Source: Spiroplasma endosymbiont of Amphimallon solstitiale (GTDB lineage Bacteria; Bacillota_I; Bacilli_A; Mycoplasmatales; VBWQ01). From it: a stretch of DNA of 64,000 nucleotides. The DNA lies in contig NZ_OZ034999.1 of assembly GCF_964030965.1 (NCBI RefSeq), positions 1,178,001 to 1,242,000 on the forward strand. The letters are read 5' to 3'. Position numbers and translations under genes: made by a program. Positions 2,689-51,003 of the stretch are shown here, piece by piece. The notes beneath the pieces were generated by a model. That model was not told the DNA's origin, did not search any database, and saw only the letters and a program-made list of their open reading frames with translations. Within the stretch, counting starts at the first letter, position 1; every line of letters starts with the position of its first letter.

Positions 2689-4449
2689 CTACAATTCTTC
2701 TAATTTTCATATATTACCTTTTAAATTACCTTTTCCACTATAAATAGTAATTAATTTTGCATGTTGAACTGATAAAATTACTATATTAACACTATCATTA
2801 AAGGTTTGTATTGGTACACCAGCAATTTTGTTATCCGTTATAATAAATTCTTGAATAGTATAAACTGGATTATATATACTTCAAGAATAATAAACTCTAT
2901 AATGTTTATTAACTATAAAATCATAAGTAATTTGTCAATTATCTCATTTATTTTTTTCTCTTGTTCCTACATCTTTTCATTGTTGATTATTTGGACTTGG
3001 TGTTGGATTATTTGGTAATTCAATATCTCAACAATTTTCTTCAACTTCATTTGTTTCTAAACTTTTTGAATTAATTTTTATTTTTGGTGTAACATCAACT
3101 TTAATTGTATTTTGTAATTCTTCTAATGAAAGAATAGCACCATAATTAATATCTCCACCTTTTAAATATAAACTACAATTAAAACTACTTTCTCTAACAG
3201 TTAAAGTTAATATTACATCTTCATCTTTAATTTTAAATTTTGCAAGTAAATAATCTCCACCTAAATAATTACCAGTTTTAAATTCTACTTTATGCTTTAT
3301 ATTTGCTTGATTTACTGGTAATTCATCTAATGTTATAATTACTCTATATACAGTATTAAAATTAATTTCAAACGTATCTCATTCACGATTATTTTTACTT
3401 TTACTTATTACTTTTCATATTTCTTTATCTTGTTTAGTATTTACTTTATCATCAACATATTTTTTTGTAGTTGCATCTTTATCTTGTTCTGGTTCACCTA
3501 TATTAACAATTCTTTTATTATTAGCAGTAATTAATCTTTTTTCTTTAGGTTGAATAATATTTGAACTATTTGGGTCTATTTCTCATAATGATTCACCATT
3601 AGCACTAATAGTATTAGTTTTTTCATCAATCTTAATATTTTCACCAGCAATTAATTTATCTTGCTTTTGTTCTATTAAATTATCAACATATTCTTTATTT
3701 GTACCATCAGTTTCAAAAGTAGGTGTACCAACATCAATTATTCTTTTACTATTAGCAATAATACCTTTATTATCTTTTAATTTAACAAAATTAAGATTAT
3801 CTTTATCAACTTCTCATAATGAATCAATATTACTATCAACATTTAATTTTAATTTAGGTATAGTATCACTAACATCTTGAATAGTAATACCAGTACCAGC
3901 AATAATTCCTTCTTTTCGTAAAAATGTTTTATTACCAGAATCTCAAGTAATTACTCTTGTATCACTTTCATCAAAAATACTAGGAGTATTAAAATTATCT
4001 GTATTACATGAAATAGGATTATTAATTGCTTTTCTTGGTGTATGTAAATTTGCTTGTTGTAATAAATTATATACTTCCATTAATACATAATCTGGTTCAC
4101 TTGGGGGACTAATACTACTTGATAAACCATTACCACTAATAGATACACTACTTCTTATAAATGCCATTCCATCAGTTAAATAATATATAGTCATTCTTGC
4201 TGTTGCTCTTTTAACTAATTGTTGTTGAGTTTCATTAAGATTTTTAAATCCTATTACTTCAATTTGATTACCAGTAATAGTATTTATACGCTCACTTGCA
4301 ATAGCAATTGCCATAATAGTAAAATCAGTTTTAGTATTATCAGTAGTAGTTTGGTCAGCATCTGGTATAAAACCATATATAGTTTTTAAATCATCTTTTG
4401 TAATATAATTTAAATTTACATTTCAATCAATATTATTTTTGTTTTCCAT
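2689..4449 (-). CDS. Phage-1 fibre / receptor-binding protein
   Basis: 586 aa, intact in this copy. The N-terminal part (about residues 1-140) is compact. The middle is built of repeating trimeric-fibre-type units: NKEYVDNLIEQKQDKLIAGE near residue 250 and TKKYVDDKVNTKQDKEIWK near 340. The C-terminal 200 residues form a globular domain ending EELQE-like, which is strongly shared with the phage-2 fibre (23156-27027). This repeat plus globular-tip layout is typical of phage fibres that bind the host surface. It starts with ATG overlapping the upstream gene by 17 bases. The copy at 43011-45920 is interrupted by IS1595. Confidence 0.8.
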
Positions 4450-5215
4450 AATTTTTAAACCTTTCATATCCATGTACTGCTTGTGATTTATTAACTACAC
4501 CAATAACTGATTTATATTTCTTTTGTTGAATTACTTTTTTACCTATATTTTTAGAATTTCTACGTGCTAAGTATTCTTTATCTTCTTTATCTAATCCGCC
4601 ATGATAATACTGTCTTATAAGTACTGAATTAGCACCGGTACCGTAAGCACCAGTTGCTTTACACATATCAATTCACATTTCTTTTGATATCATAAAGTAA
4701 TCATATGATTTACTTAAATTAGTTCTATATGTTAATGTAGCAATACCATAAGTACTAGACTGTTGTTGTATTACTGGAGTTCATATACCACCTGCTAATG
4801 CACTACTAGAAAGATTTACATAAACTCCAATCATACTGTCATAATCTTCTTGTGTTAAAGAATTCATTATTATTTCTTTACCTTTATCCATTAATGACTT
4901 ACCATTTAAATATTGTTTTTGAATATGTTGTAATTTAGCAATATTATTATTAGTAATATGTGTCATGATTTTTTTATGAATTACTGGTAAATTAGTAAGT
5001 GTTTGAAGATTTTTATTAAAACTATTTAATTCATCTTGTAACTTTCCTTTTCCTAAAGTTTTAGAAAAAATTCTAGTTTTTAATATTCCTGCTGGATTTT
5101 TTAAAAAACTATTAAATAATGAATTACTTTTTTTAAATTTTTCTATTAATTCAGCAGTTTGTATATCAGTAACAGCAGTCTCTAATATCATTCTTAACAA
5201 TAATATAATAGGCAT
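4433..5215 (-). CDS. Phage-1 260-aa structural-region protein
   Basis: 260 aa, immediately downstream of the major capsid gene (5-base gap) and overlapping the fibre gene. The N-terminal 110 residues are helical and lysine-rich; the C-terminal half holds a YDYFMISKEMWIDMCKAT block followed by a glycine-rich GAYGTGANS segment and a basic tail. Position suggests a minor virion or head-completion protein, but I recognise no family. The phage-1R copy (40863-43027) is split by an IS256 insertion. Confidence 0.7.
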
Positions 5216-5220
5216 TTAAA

Positions 5221-6411
5221 TTACTTCTTTGTAAAAGTTACTTGTAAAGAACCATCATATAAAGTTTTACCTTCAACATTAGCACTTGTTGCTGTTAAAT
5301 CTGAAAAATTAGCATTACCTTTAACATAATTAGGATTTTTAGCAATAACTGCTTTTTCTACTTCATCTGCTGTTGGAGTATCACCAGCCATAGTTATTTT
5401 TCCTAAATTAGTAAATTCAATTGCTGTAGCAATATCAATACTTGAAGTAACTGTAAATCCTTTAACTAAATCGGGTCTTAATGCTTTACCTTCTGAAACT
5501 AAAAACTTATGAAAATTCTTAACATTCCCATTAGTTTGTAAAACAAAAATATTATCTTGACCACGATTAAAAGGAAATGCTAATGCTTCTTTATGAACTA
5601 ATACAGCATCACATCCTAAAAAATTAAATCCTTCTTTTTTATCAATAACTCCAGCAGGATAATTTCTACCTAATCAAGGACATTCTACAATTTTAATACC
5701 ACCAATTTCTACGATTTTACCATCTTTTAATGCTTGTGAAGCACTATCACTACCTAATGTAGTTGTTGATAATAATACTAATGGTTTAAAGAAACTAGAT
5801 ACTCATAATGTATAATCTTCTTCATCTGTACCAATATATTCATCACTAATTCTTGCTTTTAATGTTGCTAATGTATTTGATATTTTTAATCACAAAAGCA
5901 TACGATAATCATCAATTTTTGGTGTACTTGGTAATGCAATTTTAATAATGTCGTTATCTTTTGCTGTTTTAACTGCTAATGATAATAATTTTGCTACTAA
6001 ATATGTTTCAACTGATTTTGCTTTAGCATCAATTCAACTTGATGCTAAACTATCTGATACAAGAACATTACCATCTTCATATTTTGCACCTAATCTTTTT
6101 AAATCTAATGTTTCTTCTTCAAAAGTAATTTGTTTCTTTTTATCTAGTAAAATTTGTTCAACTCTTGTTGCTGTTAAATCATTAGCACCAGCACCAGCAT
6201 TATAATCATCTGTAAGATTTCTTTTTGTAATATTATAAATAGCAGTACCAGCATCTAATTGTTCTCTATTTTCTATTGTAGCATTAATTAATGCAACTCT
6301 TTTTGATAATAAAACTTTTAAATTTTTAATATATTTTACTGATAAATCTGCTTTACCACTAGGTGTACTAGGGTCATTAATTGTTGTTGATTGTGTTGTA
6401 ATAATTGCCAT
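5221..6411 (-). CDS. Phage-1 major capsid protein with spiralin-like tail domain
   Basis: 396 aa. Call rests on position directly after an acidic scaffold-like protein, on length, and on an HK97/P22-type mixed alpha-beta composition; I see no single diagnostic motif. The last 60 or so residues (TPTADEVEKAVIAKNPNY ... YDGSLQVTF) resemble repeat modules of Spiroplasma spiralin and other surface lipoproteins, which would be an appended surface domain. Site AAAGGAGAATAAAAATG. The copy at 39667-40857 gives the same translation where I compared them. Confidence 0.75.
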
Positions 6412-6413
6412 TT

Positions 6414-6638
6414 TTATTCTCCTTTAATTTGTTTTCAATCATTTATTAGTTGTTTTTGAAAATTAATTAGTTTTTCTAAATCAATATTACTTGCTTTATA
6501 TTCAATAATAAGTTTTTCAATATTATAGTCTTCTGGTAATACTATTTTAGTACTTCTAGTAATTTTAAAAATATCAGGATAATCTCTTTTAATATTTTCA
6601 TATTTTTTATTAAATTCTTTTAATGTCATATTAACCAT
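6414..6638 (-). CDS. Phage-1 74-aa protein between scaffold and capsid
   Basis: 74 aa (MTLKEFNKKYENIKRDYPDI core), overlapping the end of the scaffold gene by 8 bases and ending two bases before the capsid start. A second in-frame ATG at 6629 could be the true start. Identical to 39440-39664. A protein of similar size and place (19296-19481) precedes the phage-2 scaffold. No function recognised. Confidence 0.7.
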
Positions 6639-7119
6639 CTACCATTCCTATTTTTCTAGTATCTACTTCATCTTCTTTATTTTCTTTAAATTTATCTTTT
6701 ATATCTAAAGAATTACTAATATTTGTATCTTTATTTTTATTAAATAAATGTGGAAAATCTTTATTTAAATTTGATAATTCTTCATCAATATCTTCTTTAT
6801 CACCAAGATATCTTTTTAATAAATTAATATTTTCTTGTGATAAATCATATTTTTTATAACTTTCTGAATGTCTAATTTCTCTATCTTTATCAGTTTTTTC
6901 TTTATATAAAGCATTATATTTTTCTTCTAATTCTTTATATTTTTCTTCTAAAGTTGGTTCTTTAGTTTCTTCAGTTTCTGGTTCTTTTTTCTCTTCAGAT
7001 TCAGATTCTTTTTCAGTATTTTCTTCTGATTTTACTTCTTCTTCCTTAGTTTCTTCTTGTTCATCTTTTTCTTTTTCTTCCATAGTATTACCTTCTTTCA
7101 TTTCATTTTCATTTAACAT
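6631..7119 (-). CDS. Phage-1 scaffold-like acidic coiled-coil protein
   Basis: 162 aa, with a glutamate/lysine-rich stretch (residues 10-60) and coiled-coil heptads around residues 60-85 (EEKYKELEEKYNALYKEK). Location just before the capsid gene and composition fit an internal scaffolding protein that guides capsid assembly. Start chosen at the ATG at 7119 because AAAGGTGGTGG lies 6-9 bases upstream; the GTG upstream falls inside that site. Confidence 0.75.
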   Translation of the reverse strand: MLNENEMKEGNTMEEKEKDEQEETKEEEVKSEENTEKESESEEKKEPETEETKEPTLEEKYKELEEKYNALYKEKTDKDREIRHSESYKKYDLSQENINLLKRYLGDKEDIDEELSNLNKDFPHLFNKNKDTNISNSLDIKDKFKENKEDEVDTRKIGMVDG

Positions 7120-7135
7120 AATTACCACCACCTTT

Positions 7136-9961
7136 CTAAGTTGAACTTTTTGGATTTATGACCAATGATGTAGTTTGTAAGTTTCAATTAGCATTCGTTT
7201 TAACAAGAGGTAATCCCATGCTAAATGTAAAAGTTACAATAAATTGATATCTTAGTACTATATATTTATTAAAACTAGTATAACCCACTATTTTAAATCA
7301 AATTGATGAAGCAATTGTATTTTCTCGACTTAAATTATCATTTGTTCATAATAAATCATTAACATAAGTATTATTAATATTATCTGTTGCTTTTAAAGTT
7401 GCTGATTGACGAGGATATTTATCGTGGGATTTTTTTTCATTAATAATATTAAATGTTCAATTATCTGTAGCATCATTATGATTCCCAGAATTATTATCAT
7501 AATAATTAACATGTGATTCAAATTGTGGATTATTCTCATTAATATCTTTTAATTCACTTAAATTAATTTTTATAGGTGTAAACCAATTTTTTGAATTTGT
7601 TACTGTTTCATAAATTGCGTTCATATTAAAATTAAAATTAAATGTTATACTTTCATAATCTTCTTGAAATTTTTCAAAACTATCATAACCATAATCTTTA
7701 AATGAAAATAATACTGCTTTACCATAACCACTTAATTCATCATTTATATCAGGTCTCATCTGATAAGGATAATTTGGTCTTATATCACGTGAACCTTGAA
7801 TGTTATTTGTAATTCCATATTGACTTTGATTACTTAAATCAATAAATATAGGATGTGCTCTTTCTATTAATGGGGGTGGTTGAATTGCTTGTGGATAATT
7901 AAATGGTTGGTCAAATTTAAAAGTATTATTTGCTAAAATAAATGTATTTTGAATTAATCTACTATTATTACTTGCTTTACCTACTGTTTGATAAGTACCA
8001 CTTCAAATACTAAAATTATCATTAACAGCACCATTTCTATTATCTGGCATTGAATAAAATGTTATTTTAAAATTACTTTTACCTACAACTTTAATATCAA
8101 TCATATCAATTGCTCATTTTAATATATTAGTATCAGTAAATTTAGGTTCATTTAATAATGGAATTAAACTATTTTCTTTTGGTAATAATGAAATTGTATC
8201 TTTATCACCAGCACCATTTTGAACTAAATTTACAGTATCATAAATTCCTTGTGAAGAAATACTTCCATCATTAATATTAAAATTTTGTAAATTAATCCTA
8301 TCAGTTAAATTAAATGTAAATGATGTCATATGACTTGCTGTTCCAGCAACTGCTTGTATAGCATCTGGAGTATCATTTCTAAAGACATCTAATGGAATTA
8401 ATGCTGGATTAGTACTTTGTGAACTATATAATAATGTTGTATAAAAATTATATAATTCAGCAGATATTAAGCCATTTATATAAGGAAATTGTGGTATTAA
8501 TAAATTACTTGATAATTTAGCACCAATATCTAAACCACCAACAAAAGCATTCATAAATGAACCAAATATAGGTATAGTATTAAGATTAATTTTAATAGTT
8601 TCTCTTACTGTTAAAGGTATTTCACTAATAGGATTATAAATAAAATAATGTAATGCATTTATAGTATTTAATTGCTTAAATTTATTATTATTCATATTAT
8701 AATGATTATTACCAATAAATTTTTTATTATTTTTATTATAATATTGAAAATATGGATTACCAGCAGTTGCATAATTATAATCTTCTATTTCAGCACCATT
8801 TAAAAAATTATTATCTCAATAATTTACTAATCTATTTGAAACATCAACTTTATTAGTATTTTTAGTTTTTTCAACATTAGTTCTTAAATGACCTTCATAA
8901 TGTTTTGTTGCTCCATCATCATAATTTGGAGAAATTACTTTTTGTCAATCTTGATAACTATCCATTGTACTTTCACCACGTACAGTTAATACATAATTAG
9001 TTTCTGGTAATGCTTGAAAACTTACTGGGTCATAAGTTGAACATTGATATTGTCATGGAAATAATAATTTACTTGGGTATTGTCGATATTTATGTTGTTT
9101 AGTATTAATAGGATTATTATCAATATCTCTACCTCATAATGCTATTGAAATAGGTTTTACTGAACCATAAAAAGATATTTGACAATGAGTTACTGGTAAT
9201 GGTGTTAAATAATTATCATCTAAAACAATATTATTATTTTCATCCAATGTTGGTAATGCTACTGGGTCGCCCGGCGCCCCTAATTGTACATATTGATTAA
9301 TTGCTAATCCACTATGTGCTAATTTATCATTTAATGAACTAAAAGTACATTGAATAAAAGCCAATTCTTTATTTTCTGGATTATAAGTTTTAGTTGCAAC
9401 TTCAAGAATATATCATTGTCTATCAACTTTAATTGATTTATCAGTATTTATAACTTTATTAATTTCTGGAATCATATATAACTTATATAAATTTGAAACA
9501 ATATTATTAATAAAATCAAAATTCTTTTTTTCATTTGGAATATTAATAACTACATTTTTAATTGCTTGTTCTTGAATAAAAGCATTATTTGCTGGTGTTG
9601 CTGAATAAGTAATACCTAATTGGTCACTTATAATATTTCCATAAAATACATCACCAATTTGTAATTGTTTATATGCTAAATCTGGATTATCTTTATCTTG
9701 AATAGGATAATAAGAATGGTCTCATACTGCTTGTATTGCTTCTCTACCAGTAAAGATTTTACTAAAACTAGTATAATCATTAGGAATTGAAGTTGGTGGT
9801 TTATATCCCGTTTCTGTTGAATTTATAGCACCTAAAATAATAGTAAAAGGACATACACGAAATTGTAAATCTTTATTTTGTGTAAAATCTTTTTCAATTT
9901 CACCAGTTGATTTTCAAACTGTTTTAATTAATTGATGATTTATTTTCGGTATCATTCTCAT
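7136..9961 (-). CDS. Phage-1 large tail/knob-like structural protein
   Basis: 941 aa, the largest gene of the phage, between portal and scaffold. Near residues 465-500 there is a hydrophobic, glycine-rich stretch (PIFGSFMNAFVGGLDIGAK) inside an otherwise beta-rich, Asn/Tyr-rich protein. Short-tailed phages such as phi29 have a tail-knob protein with membrane-active hydrophobic loops; that analogy is inference from layout only. The phage-1R homologue (35984-38935) is conserved in the first third but strongly diverged after about residue 260 and shorter (926 codons once its MITE is removed). The start overlaps the portal gene by 38 bases. Confidence 0.65.
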
Positions 9962-46279: not shown

Positions 46280-46282
46280 TAA

Positions 46283-46306
46283 AAAATGCCTATTAAAGGC
46301 ATTTTT
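46283..46306. terminator. Bidirectional terminator between converging operons
   Basis: AAAATGCC / GGCATTTT stem with 7-base loop and A and T runs; it ends the plus-strand late genes and the minus-strand early genes. Confidence 0.88.
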
Positions 46307-46312
46307 ACTTAT

Positions 46313-47131
46313 TTATAAACTCATATGATTATAATCTCAATTTAATGAAGCATTATCTAAAAGTACATCACTCATATTAGCGCCATATTGACTACTTGTT
46401 TCACTATTAATGGTAAATCTATTATCATTTATTAATCTTCTTGTTTCATTATTAAATGCTGTTTCTTGCATTTCTTGAATATGATTTGTAGTTTCCATTG
46501 GTAATAAATTATGAATAATTTCACTTGCTCCAGCAACTATTGTCGGAACTGCATAAGCATTATTAAAATCATTATTTATCCCCATTGCAACACCACTTGA
46601 AATTAAACAACCACCAGTTGCCATATTACATATCTTTCTTATATTTTCAAATCTATTCGGTATTAATTCAGTAAAAGCACTAATAAGATTTGCAAAAGCA
46701 AAAGCATTTAATGAAATATAAGTATCTCAATCCATGAAATTATTATCATTATTAGTATTAATATTAAATAATAAATCTGGTGGAAATGGGTCAACAGTAG
46801 TTGTAGGAATTGGTGTTGTTGGAATAATAGGATTAATATTATTTTCGTTTCATTTAATATAATTTGTTATAAAAGTTGTACTTAAACCAATTGTTATTTT
46901 TTTAAATATATTAATTAATTTATTTTTAGGTGTTGGATGTTGATTAATATTTCAAATATCAATTCCTAATTTTTTACTAAAAAATAAAGCATTAATACTT
47001 CCTAATATTGGATAATTTAATAAATGTCCATAATATGAACTTATACCTATCATTGCTGATAATGGTGATATTCCCGTTCTTATTAATTTTAATAAAGTAT
47101 AATTTGAATTTGTAGTTTCTGTATTTGGCAT
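46313..47131 (-). CDS. Phage 272-aa membrane protein (phage 1)
   Basis: 272 aa, homologue of 18072-18890: shared N-terminus (NYTLLKLIRTGISPLSAMIG), Pro/Thr linker (IPTTPIPTTTVDPFPP) and a conserved C-terminal third (MATGGCLISSGVAMGINNDF ... WDYNHMSL). Two hydrophobic regions. Last gene of the early operon. Role unknown; strong conservation in both phage types marks it as a core gene. Confidence 0.7.
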
Positions 47132-47247: not shown

Positions 47248-47505
47248 TTAACTTTCTTTTATAAATTTAAATTGCATATTTCCAATAGTATCTCTATTAT
47301 TACCAACTATAATTAAATATCCAGTTTGATTATTTTCTAATATTCATGAATAAAAAATATCTTGTGGATATAATTTTGGATATAAATTTAATGCTAATAA
47401 ATAACATAAAGCATCTTCTTTATTTTTTAATAAACTTACTGTTGGACATTTTATTTCTTTTGGACTTTTGTCATTATAAAATCATTCAGTTCTAATATTT
47501 CTCAT
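47248..47505 (-). CDS. Phage-1 85-aa protein downstream of the hammerhead
   Basis: 85 aa with two TGA tryptophans. Contains KNKEDALCYLLALNLYPKLY and GYLIIVGNNRD, faintly like the phage-2 protein at 17522-17758. Its start lies 19 bases 3' of the hammerhead core, with site AAAGGATGTG between, so ribozyme cleavage would set the 5' end of its mRNA. No family recognised. Confidence 0.65.
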
Positions 47506-47523
47506 TATTTCACATCCTTTTAT

Positions 47524-47604
47524 GAACTCATCAGCACCGTAATAAACGGTGGACTATAGAATTATAATGTTATCCAAATTTTTAATAATTCTATAGTTTC
47601 GTTC
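47524..47604 (-). ncRNA. Type II hammerhead ribozyme
   Basis: All conserved parts are present, read on the minus strand 5' to 3': stem II strand GAAC (47604-47601), GAAA (47600-47597), stem III CTATAGAATTAT paired with ATAATTCTATAG (47596-47585 and 47565-47554; loop of 19), cleavage triplet GTC (47554-47552), stem I CACCGT / ACGGTG with loop TTATT (47551-47535), CTGATGA (47534-47528), and the second stem II strand GTTC (47527-47524). Cleavage is expected after the C at 47552. Stem II is the open one, which makes it type II. It lies between two early-operon genes. Confidence 0.93.
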
Positions 47605-47704
47605 TGTATAGATATAAAATTTAGGACTTACATTGACATATTTTAAGCAAGAATAAAAAATAGGGAATAGGAGTTAGAAAGGATATATGTCAAATGCCTA
47701 AATA

Positions 47705-47983: not shown

Positions 47984-48826
47984 CTAAACTTCAAAATTTT
48001 CTATAATTTCTTCTTCTTTTTCTAATTCTTTTAATTTAGATAAAGTAGAATTTATATCAGTATTATCAATATTATTATTTGAATTAATAATTTTAACTTC
48101 ATCACCAGTATTATCCTTATATGCAATAGTTTCTTCATCAATTACTACACCTTGGTCTAATTGAAGTGCCAAATTAATATCATCTTGATTATTTAATACT
48201 ATAATTGGTGTTTTATTAATTTCACGAATTAATGCTTTAACTACTGTTTTTAAAGCCATTTGGTCAAATGCAGAAGTTCATATATGATTTAATTTTCATT
48301 CTTGACTTTTTTTATTATAAGTTTTTCCATATTTATCTTTATGTTGATTAATTTCTTCAACAGTCATTCCTTTATAAAAATTATTAATTTTACCATTTTT
48401 ATCTAAAAGTGAAATATAACAATAATAACCAATAGTATTAATTGTTTTTCTTTCAAAAATTAATGCTGGATTAATTTCTCATTTATTATTTTCTTTATTA
48501 AATTTATGTGCAGTTGTTATTTTTTCTCTTTGAAAATCAACAACTAATCCAGTTCTTTGTAATAATGTTAATCAACCATCTTCTTGAATTTGAACTTGTA
48601 ATTCATCACCATAAGGAATTAATGCTAATTCTTTTTTAATTGGATTAATTGAAAGATTTAATTTATATAAATTAATTAATGCATTAATTAAACTTTGTGT
48701 ATTCATATTTTTTAAATCTTTACTAGAATTTATAATCATTTCATAATAATTTCTAAATTTTACATATTCTTCTTTATTACTTTTAATAAAATTAGGAATT
48801 TTTAATTCATTTTTATTATTACTCAT
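47984..48826 (-). CDS. recT: RecT-family single-strand annealing protein
   Basis: 280 aa. RecT pattern: LALIPYGDELQVQIQEDGWLT-type core (residues about 64-84) followed by a hydrophobic block with LLQRTGLVVDFQ, and the C-terminal AFDQMALKTVVKALIRE motif that resembles the conserved KK-x-V-KR-L helix of RecT. Acidic tail (KELEKEEEIIENFEV). RecT pairs complementary single strands during phage recombination; its exonuclease partner is likely the PD-(D/E)XK gene at 49521-50171. Confidence 0.85.
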
Positions 48827-49362: not shown

Positions 49363-49528
49363 TCTTTAATTCTCCTAAATCTGTAAAAATTCTTGTTTTT
49401 AATAAAAATAATTCATGTTTAATTTGATTTCTAATTTCAATTTTTATTTCTTCATCATATACTTCTTCTATTAATTCAGTTAAATATTTAATATTTTCTT
49501 TAATTTCATTTGTTTCTTTTTTAATCAT
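49355..49528 (-). CDS. Phage-1 57-aa coiled-coil protein
   Basis: 57 aa helical protein (KETNEIKENIKYLTELIEE). Start ATG at 49528 overlaps the nuclease gene end by 8 bases with site AAAGGAGAAAATAAAA. Confidence 0.55.
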   Translation of the reverse strand: MIKKETNEIKENIKYLTELIEEVYDEEIKIEIRNQIKHELFLLKTRIFTDLGELKNE

Positions 49529-50171
49529 TTTTATTTTCTCCTTTAAAATATTTTGTTTTTGCATTAAATCATTCAATTAATAATTCACTGGTTATTTCAA
49601 TTTCTATTGTTTCTTGATTATTTTTATTAGTTAAATAAACATAAGTTTTATTACATGGACTTATATCATTAGCAAGTAACATACAATAATAAGCAGTTAA
49701 TTGTAATTTAATTCTTTTTAATTTATCTTCATCAATACAAGCATAAGTTTTATAATCTACTAAATAATATTTATTTTCTTTTTTATTTAAATAAACTAAA
49801 TCGGGTGTTCCAGCAATTACATTATCATTAATAGGTTTTTCAATAATAAATTCATAATTATTTTTATCTTTAAATTTTTCTTTTAAAAACATAAGTGATT
49901 TTTTACAATAAGAATAATTTATATTATTAGTTACTGGTTTTAATTTTTTTAATAAATTATTAATTATATTTTCTTCATTAATATTTTGTAAATATAATTC
50001 ATTAAGTTTATGAACTCATTTACCACGAACTGAAGCATTTTTTAATACTTCTGGTGCTATATGACTATATCCAAAACCTAAATAATTATCAATAATTCTA
50101 GAAACTGATATTAATTCTTTATCTTCTAAAAAATATTGATGAGTTTCTTTTTTAAAAATTAATTTACTCAT
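49521..50171 (-). CDS. PD-(D/E)XK phage exonuclease
   Basis: 216 aa. RecB/lambda-exonuclease-type active site: Asp in VIAGTPDLVYLN (about residue 122) and the VDYKTYA strand (Asp and Lys, about 137-139), preceded by an alpha helix with EEN-type acidic residues. Makes the single strands that RecT pairs; the two form a phage Red-like recombination system separated here by four small genes. Confidence 0.8.
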
Positions 50172-50764: not shown

Positions 50765-51003
50765 TACAAATGTAATTGTTAATTAGATTAATGGGTTCTT
50801 TACTGAGCCATAATAAGGCTATTCAAATTAATCTATAATTACATTAAGCGATACAGTGTAACATTTTAACTTGCTTAACATTAAATGCTCTTTTATTCTG
50901 ATATAGAAGTATTTACATAAAGTACTCACTATTAGACTTCTACGACAGTTTTATGAAGTTTTAATCTTTTAACAAAAAAAGAACGATAGTTATATCGTTC
51001 TTT
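50765..51003 (+). ncRNA. Candidate structured RNA with terminator
   Basis: No frame between the divergent genes. Helices: ATGTAATT / AATTACAT (50770-50777 / 50837-50844), TAGATTAAT / ATTAATCTA (50784-50792 / 50827-50835), AGCC / GGCT inside it, and AGAAGT / ACTTCT around 50905-50942. It ends in AAAGAACGATA / TATCGTTCTTT (50978-51003) followed by T-rich sequence, an intrinsic terminator on the plus strand. Family not recognised. Confidence 0.5.

Follow-up and report, generated by a model that had tools for sequence, protein, structure and literature searches.

Type II hammerhead ribozymes have been described in phages, where they cluster around genes and cleave both in vitro and in E. coli, and in 2011 Perreault et al. 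proposed that phage hammerheads process transcripts between cistrons (PMC3088659). A 2017 review noted the link to phages and considered the function of hammerheads in prokaryotes unsettled (PMC6155905). Here we analyse an element on the minus strand of a 64-kb window (the whole stretch of DNA that was analysed) from the genome of an insect-associated Spiroplasma. With the known phage and prophage type II elements (PMC3088659; RF02276) it shares the permutation with an open stem II, the core nucleotides, the GUC site and a short stem II, as well as a possible pairing of loop I with the 3′ tail, a phage gene context and the proposed cutting of a long transcript. It differs from them in its mollicute host, in escaping detection by the Rfam model, in its long, AT-rich stem III (12 bp, 19-nt loop), and in standing in its Spiroplasma prophage as a single element rather than in a cluster. 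Type II elements on IMG/VR viral contigs (e.g. L093, L097, L098 and L156) likewise lie between two genes, some with the same GAAC/GTTC stem II, and, as in the window, their 3′ end precedes a start codon, at a distance of about 20–28 nt, with a Shine-Dalgarno motif in between; however, they are mostly GC-rich, have a shorter stem III, and follow the upstream stop codon within a few nucleotides, compared to ~100 nt here. The claim of the earlier note that intercistronic use was undescribed was therefore too strong, given the 2011 proposal and the frequency of the same placement in viral contigs. Our literature search, with preprints and most subscription papers outside its scope, found no report of hammerheads in Spiroplasma; the element is apparently the first hammerhead in Mollicutes, in a host group that is new. 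We consider it likely that we are dealing with a true type II hammerhead and that it serves to process the polycistronic mRNA of a Spiroplasma prophage.

Anatomy and detection of the ribozyme

Positions 47604–47524 of the minus strand read GAAC-GAAA-CTATAGAATTAT-(19 nt)-ATAATTCTATAG-TC/CACCGT-TTATT-ACGGTG-CTGATGA-GTTC (slash, predicted cut), and direct reading identifies all elements of a type II hammerhead:

47524–47604, minus strand: whole type II hammerhead (reading, MFE fold, covariance model R1)
47601–47604 and 47524–47527, minus strand: stem II, GAAC paired with GTTC (sequence, MFE fold)
47597–47600, minus strand: core GAAA (G12 A13 A14 A15.1), from sequence, invariant in 17/17 intact copies
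47585–47596, minus strand: stem III 5′ strand, 12 perfect pairs with 47554–47565
47566–47584, minus strand: stem III loop, 19 nt, one A differing among copies
47554–47565, minus strand: stem III 3′ strand (sequence)
47552–47553, minus strand: U16.1 and C17, with the cut predicted at 47552/47551 from the position relative to the core
47535–47551, minus strand: stem I hairpin (sequence, fold), predicted 5′ end of the downstream product
47528–47534, minus strand: core CTGATGA (C3–A9), from sequence, invariant
47520–47523, minus strand: tail AUAA directly 3′ of stem II, which could pair with UUAU of loop I as a possible pseudoknot

The fold and the order of the segments fit type II, with loops closing stems I and III and stem II left open. 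Stem I pairs CACCGT (47551–47546) with ACGGTG (47540–47535) over 6 bp around the 5-nt loop TTATT, while stem III is extended beyond its 12 perfect pairs by A15.1–U16.1, and the triplet G16.2 U16.1 C17 (GTC) ends at 47552. The nucleotides required of a hammerhead core (CUGANGA, GAAA, an A15.1–U16.1 pair and H17) are present as CTGATGA, GAAA and GTC. The minimum free energy fold of the region is exactly the hammerhead structure, at –21.6 kcal/mol (z = –4.3) compared to a mean of –10.8 kcal/mol for shuffled sequences, 1 of 200 of which folded as well as the native one. The earlier description of a complete type II hammerhead, with its elements and coordinates, was thus borne out to the base by reading, fold and covariance model, whereas the covariance search that it suggested, with the Rfam hammerhead II model (RF02276), gave no match, and a model of phage type II elements, R1, did.

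Specifically, Rfam 15 returned no match to the window element at the gathering threshold and no hammerhead match at E ≤ 10, and RF00008 and RF02276 found nothing when searched genome-wide. The RF02276 gathering score, below which the window element falls, is a detection threshold and not a structural criterion. In a control on five viral contigs (L093, L097, L098, L118 and L156), that threshold was reached by only 4 of ~24 descriptor-positive type II elements, all four from a single contig, so the miss reflects the poor sensitivity of RF02276; for the same reason annotation pipelines probably overlook most phage type II hammerheads, many of which the Rfam model leaves undetected. Because the control showed most descriptor-positive elements being missed, we built R1 from a set of 50 type II hammerheads of phages, gathered from IMG/VR by DNA pattern and including none from Spiroplasma; these training elements were chosen for pairing, and their covariation is not independent evidence. 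R1 matched 47524–47604 of the minus strand with 51.6 bits (E = 9e-14), the sole match in the window.

Copies and conservation among prophages

Applied to the whole genome, R1 found only four sites, all identical copies of the window hammerhead. Across 320 genomes of the order it detected 17 intact elements (4 in this genome and, in two related Spiroplasma genomes, 3 in G002 and 10 in G004) and none in the remaining genomes, and a 395-genome sample of the class contained only two further genomes with a match, one of these matches lying directly before a likely ribosome-binding site and ATG. Among the 17 intact copies in three genomes there are zero changes at core or stem positions, and hence none of the uncompensated losses of stem pairing that the earlier note had named as contrary evidence. 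Variation is confined to one A in the stem III loop and to loop I, which occurs in five variants (TTATT, TTATTT, TTGTT, TAAAT and AGTAA). The probability that all variable columns would fall in loops by chance is roughly 4e-4 for these closely related copies; because of that relatedness, the invariance is weak evidence of selection, and it comes with no covariation within Spiroplasma.

The same relatedness of all copies would suit a remnant hammerhead that has lost cleavage in vivo and is maintained through copying of the prophage family, as would the decay of some prophage copies by insertion or truncation, and the loss of the loop I/tail contact in 7/17 copies (UUAU can pair with AUAA in the other 10). 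We nevertheless consider a remnant unlikely, since core and stems are unchanged in the 17 copies while both loops vary, and since not all type II elements of phages have the pseudoknot: at least four Watson–Crick loop I/tail pairs occur in about 22% of them. Lost in two of the five loop variants, the pseudoknot was also rejected as a strict requirement. Among the decayed prophage copies, one (L073, 10580–10960) contains two truncated tandem copies of the 5′ half of the repeat-plus-ribozyme unit, and in another (L072, 11110–11240) the sequence stops just 5′ of the ribozyme, probably through insertion.

No intact ribozyme was found in these decayed copies, in the Spiroplasma phage MaM-2019a, or in a divergent RecT lineage (10 copies in G005 and two in this genome). 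MaM-2019a (OL689226, ~19 kb) resembles the window prophage in carrying its RecT module on the strand opposite the module of TerL, portal and capsid, but its RecT is only 26% identical, and no hammerhead, whether of type I, II or III, was found in it even when the stem requirements were relaxed. The divergent lineage, with 52% identity in RecT, has relatives of the 272-aa gene that follows the ribozyme in the window, there directly preceded by other genes and without a hammerhead, so the hammerhead was probably either gained in front of the 85-aa/272-aa gene pair here or lost elsewhere. A small gene and a 272-aa relative are also paired without the ribozyme at L068 (17454–18486) and L060 (17032–18103), the small gene having weak similarity to the 85-aa gene; the L068 pair directly follows a capsid-like gene, and such pairs may therefore move between early and late modules. 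Prophage copy numbers are high in these Spiroplasma genomes, with 10 RecT matches in G005 (a 1.49-Mb genome) and 13 in G004.

Operon context and predicted products

Gene families and the terminator scan place the ribozyme between genes of one apparent prophage transcription unit on the minus strand, in the order PD-(D/E)XK exonuclease, RecT, small ORFs, ribozyme, 85-aa gene and 272-aa gene:

50978–51003, listed on both strands: terminator-like hairpin upstream of the operon (intrinsic-terminator scan)
49521–50171, minus strand: PD-(D/E)XK exonuclease gene (PF12705, E = 3e-8; phrog_298)
47984–48826, minus strand: RecT-family single-strand annealing protein gene (PF03837, E = 7e-25; phrog_148)
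47633–47693, minus strand: inverted repeat TTGACATAT ... ATATGTCAA, 9-bp arms, ~30 nt upstream of the ribozyme
47515–47520, minus strand: Shine-Dalgarno-like motif AAAGGA for the 85-aa gene, 9 nt upstream of its ATG (sequence)
47248–47505, minus strand: 85-aa gene, directly 3′ of the ribozyme, matching no family and found in G000, G002 and G004 alone
46313–47131, minus strand: 272-aa gene, last of the operon, no family match, relatives in ribozyme-less prophages
46282–46306, listed on the plus strand only: terminator-like hairpin just past the last operon gene (intrinsic-terminator scan)

The ribozyme ends 18 nt before the ATG (47505) of the 85-aa gene and lies about 100 nt from the last small ORF, with the inverted repeat in between. 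The scan listed no terminator-like site from RecT to the 85-aa gene, and the AAAAA/TTTTT flanks of the hairpin at 46282–46306 could allow it to serve the minus strand as well; a promoter between RecT and the ribozyme may exist in such AT-rich DNA. These data support the earlier placement of the element in a minus-strand prophage operon, refine the distance given there (about 20 bases before the 85-aa gene), and agree with a predicted cut just upstream of that gene's ribosome-binding site. Facing the unit, on the plus strand, is a convergent late module that includes a portal-like gene, a gene resembling those for tail or head fibres, and large ORFs that appear to occupy the terminase position; in the window prophage copy, this module is interrupted by transposase genes.

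All 17 copies stand before the same 85-aa gene, which is broken in one of them, and each is preceded by the inverted repeat (loci L076–L091), whose arms are invariant around a middle of 28–58 nt. A search of RecT lineages that lack the hammerhead did not find the repeat, which possibly forms an RNA hairpin that protects or regulates the upstream transcript. Neither the 85-aa nor the 272-aa protein has a Pfam, PHROG or phage match, and a search of viral contigs for the 85-aa protein found none. The 272-aa protein has no clear membrane span, and its AlphaFold model (pLDDT 41) was set aside as too poor. A weak match to a Borreliella plasmid, located in AT-rich DNA upstream of the ribozyme, was discarded.

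Judging from the anatomy of the element, self-cleavage would occur in the host: once the operon is transcribed, the RNA would fold and cut itself between 47552 and 47551, leaving an upstream piece whose 3′ end is the 12-bp stem III hairpin bearing a 2′,3′-cyclic phosphate, and a downstream mRNA that starts with a 5′-hydroxyl and the stem I hairpin and has its own ribosome-binding site ~31 nt from the new end. The ribozyme would thereby probably cut the long phage mRNA into separately usable pieces. By topology, the type II permutation places a closed stem III on the upstream product and a closed stem I on the downstream product, whereas in types I and III one new end is unpaired. Since type II alone closes both new ends with a hairpin, its likely use would be to make the 85-aa/272-aa pair independent of the early genes in stability and translation, with both fragments protected, and the closed hairpins may shield both mRNAs from exonucleases. 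For the 272-aa gene, the ribozyme is not essential, because related prophages carry relatives of this gene without it.

Placement before ribosome-binding sites in phages

Non-redundant hammerheads in viral contigs were surveyed with fixed core patterns, which fixed part of stem II and the 15.2–16.2 pair and were not identical between types, and were scored as positive when a Shine-Dalgarno-like motif and the start codon of an ORF no shorter than 40 codons lay up to 50 nt downstream. Among the matches listed, this arrangement was found for 116 of 155 type II elements (75%; median distance 24.5 nt, quartiles 20–28) compared to 11.6% of random same-strand positions; the proportions for type I (41%, n = 135) and type III (36%, n = 47), again among the matches listed, were obtained with differing patterns. 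Usually, no more than about 10 nt separate a type II element from the stop codon of the preceding gene. With 18 nt to the ATG and AAAGGA in between, the window element fits this general placement. A PHROG scan of the genes downstream of phage type II hammerheads returned mixed functions and no single class. The strict positioning of type II elements ahead of ribosome-binding sites, now quantified, provides a specific and testable model of phage mRNA cutting, of which the Spiroplasma family is a compact case, with one ribozyme, one gene pair and natural loop variants. More tentatively, and a little short of probable in our judgement, type II hammerheads may be used by phages in general to process mRNA between cistrons. 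They would occupy a fixed window ahead of ribosome-binding sites because no other permutation gives closed hairpins at both new ends, and, as the Spiroplasma prophages would show, their use would extend to wall-less, genome-reduced bacteria and their AT-rich phages that read TGA as tryptophan.

Alternatively, the ribozyme may be catalytically real and act mainly as a translational switch, with cleavage unmasking the Shine-Dalgarno motif and turning on the 85-aa gene. In the window copy, the motif is indeed predicted to be 0.59 unpaired in the uncut RNA and 0.99 after cutting. However, accessibility hardly changes in the G002 copies (0.97–0.99 to 0.98–1.00) or in the commonest G004 copy (0.72 to 0.74), and averaged over 123 type II elements of phages it stays the same (0.53 before and 0.55 after cutting). 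Pairing of the sequence upstream of stem II with the downstream tail, considered as a general rule, was likewise no better than in permuted sequences. Unmasking was therefore rejected as a general rule, being predicted for the window copy and not for other copies or phages generally, and we regard a switch as the main function as quite improbable. A resemblance to a hammerhead that arose by chance, or in a hairpin serving as a terminator or protein-binding site, would account for two adjacent perfect hairpins in an AT-rich intergenic region, but this scarcely credible reading is effectively refuted by the profile match (R1 E = 9e-14), with all core nucleotides and three stems occurring together, no type I, II or III hammerhead in a descriptor scan of 60 dinucleotide shuffles of the window on both strands, and the site not listed by the terminator scan.

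Processing between cistrons, the reading that we prefer, can be set beside one viral contig with many such elements. In L156 (IMGVR_UViG_3300025889_000748), 12 consecutive type II hammerheads occupy ~3600–9100, with every successive intergenic gap containing one, and all are followed by a GAAGGAGGAC-like motif (a strong ribosome-binding site) and an ATG; R1 detects 10 of the 12.
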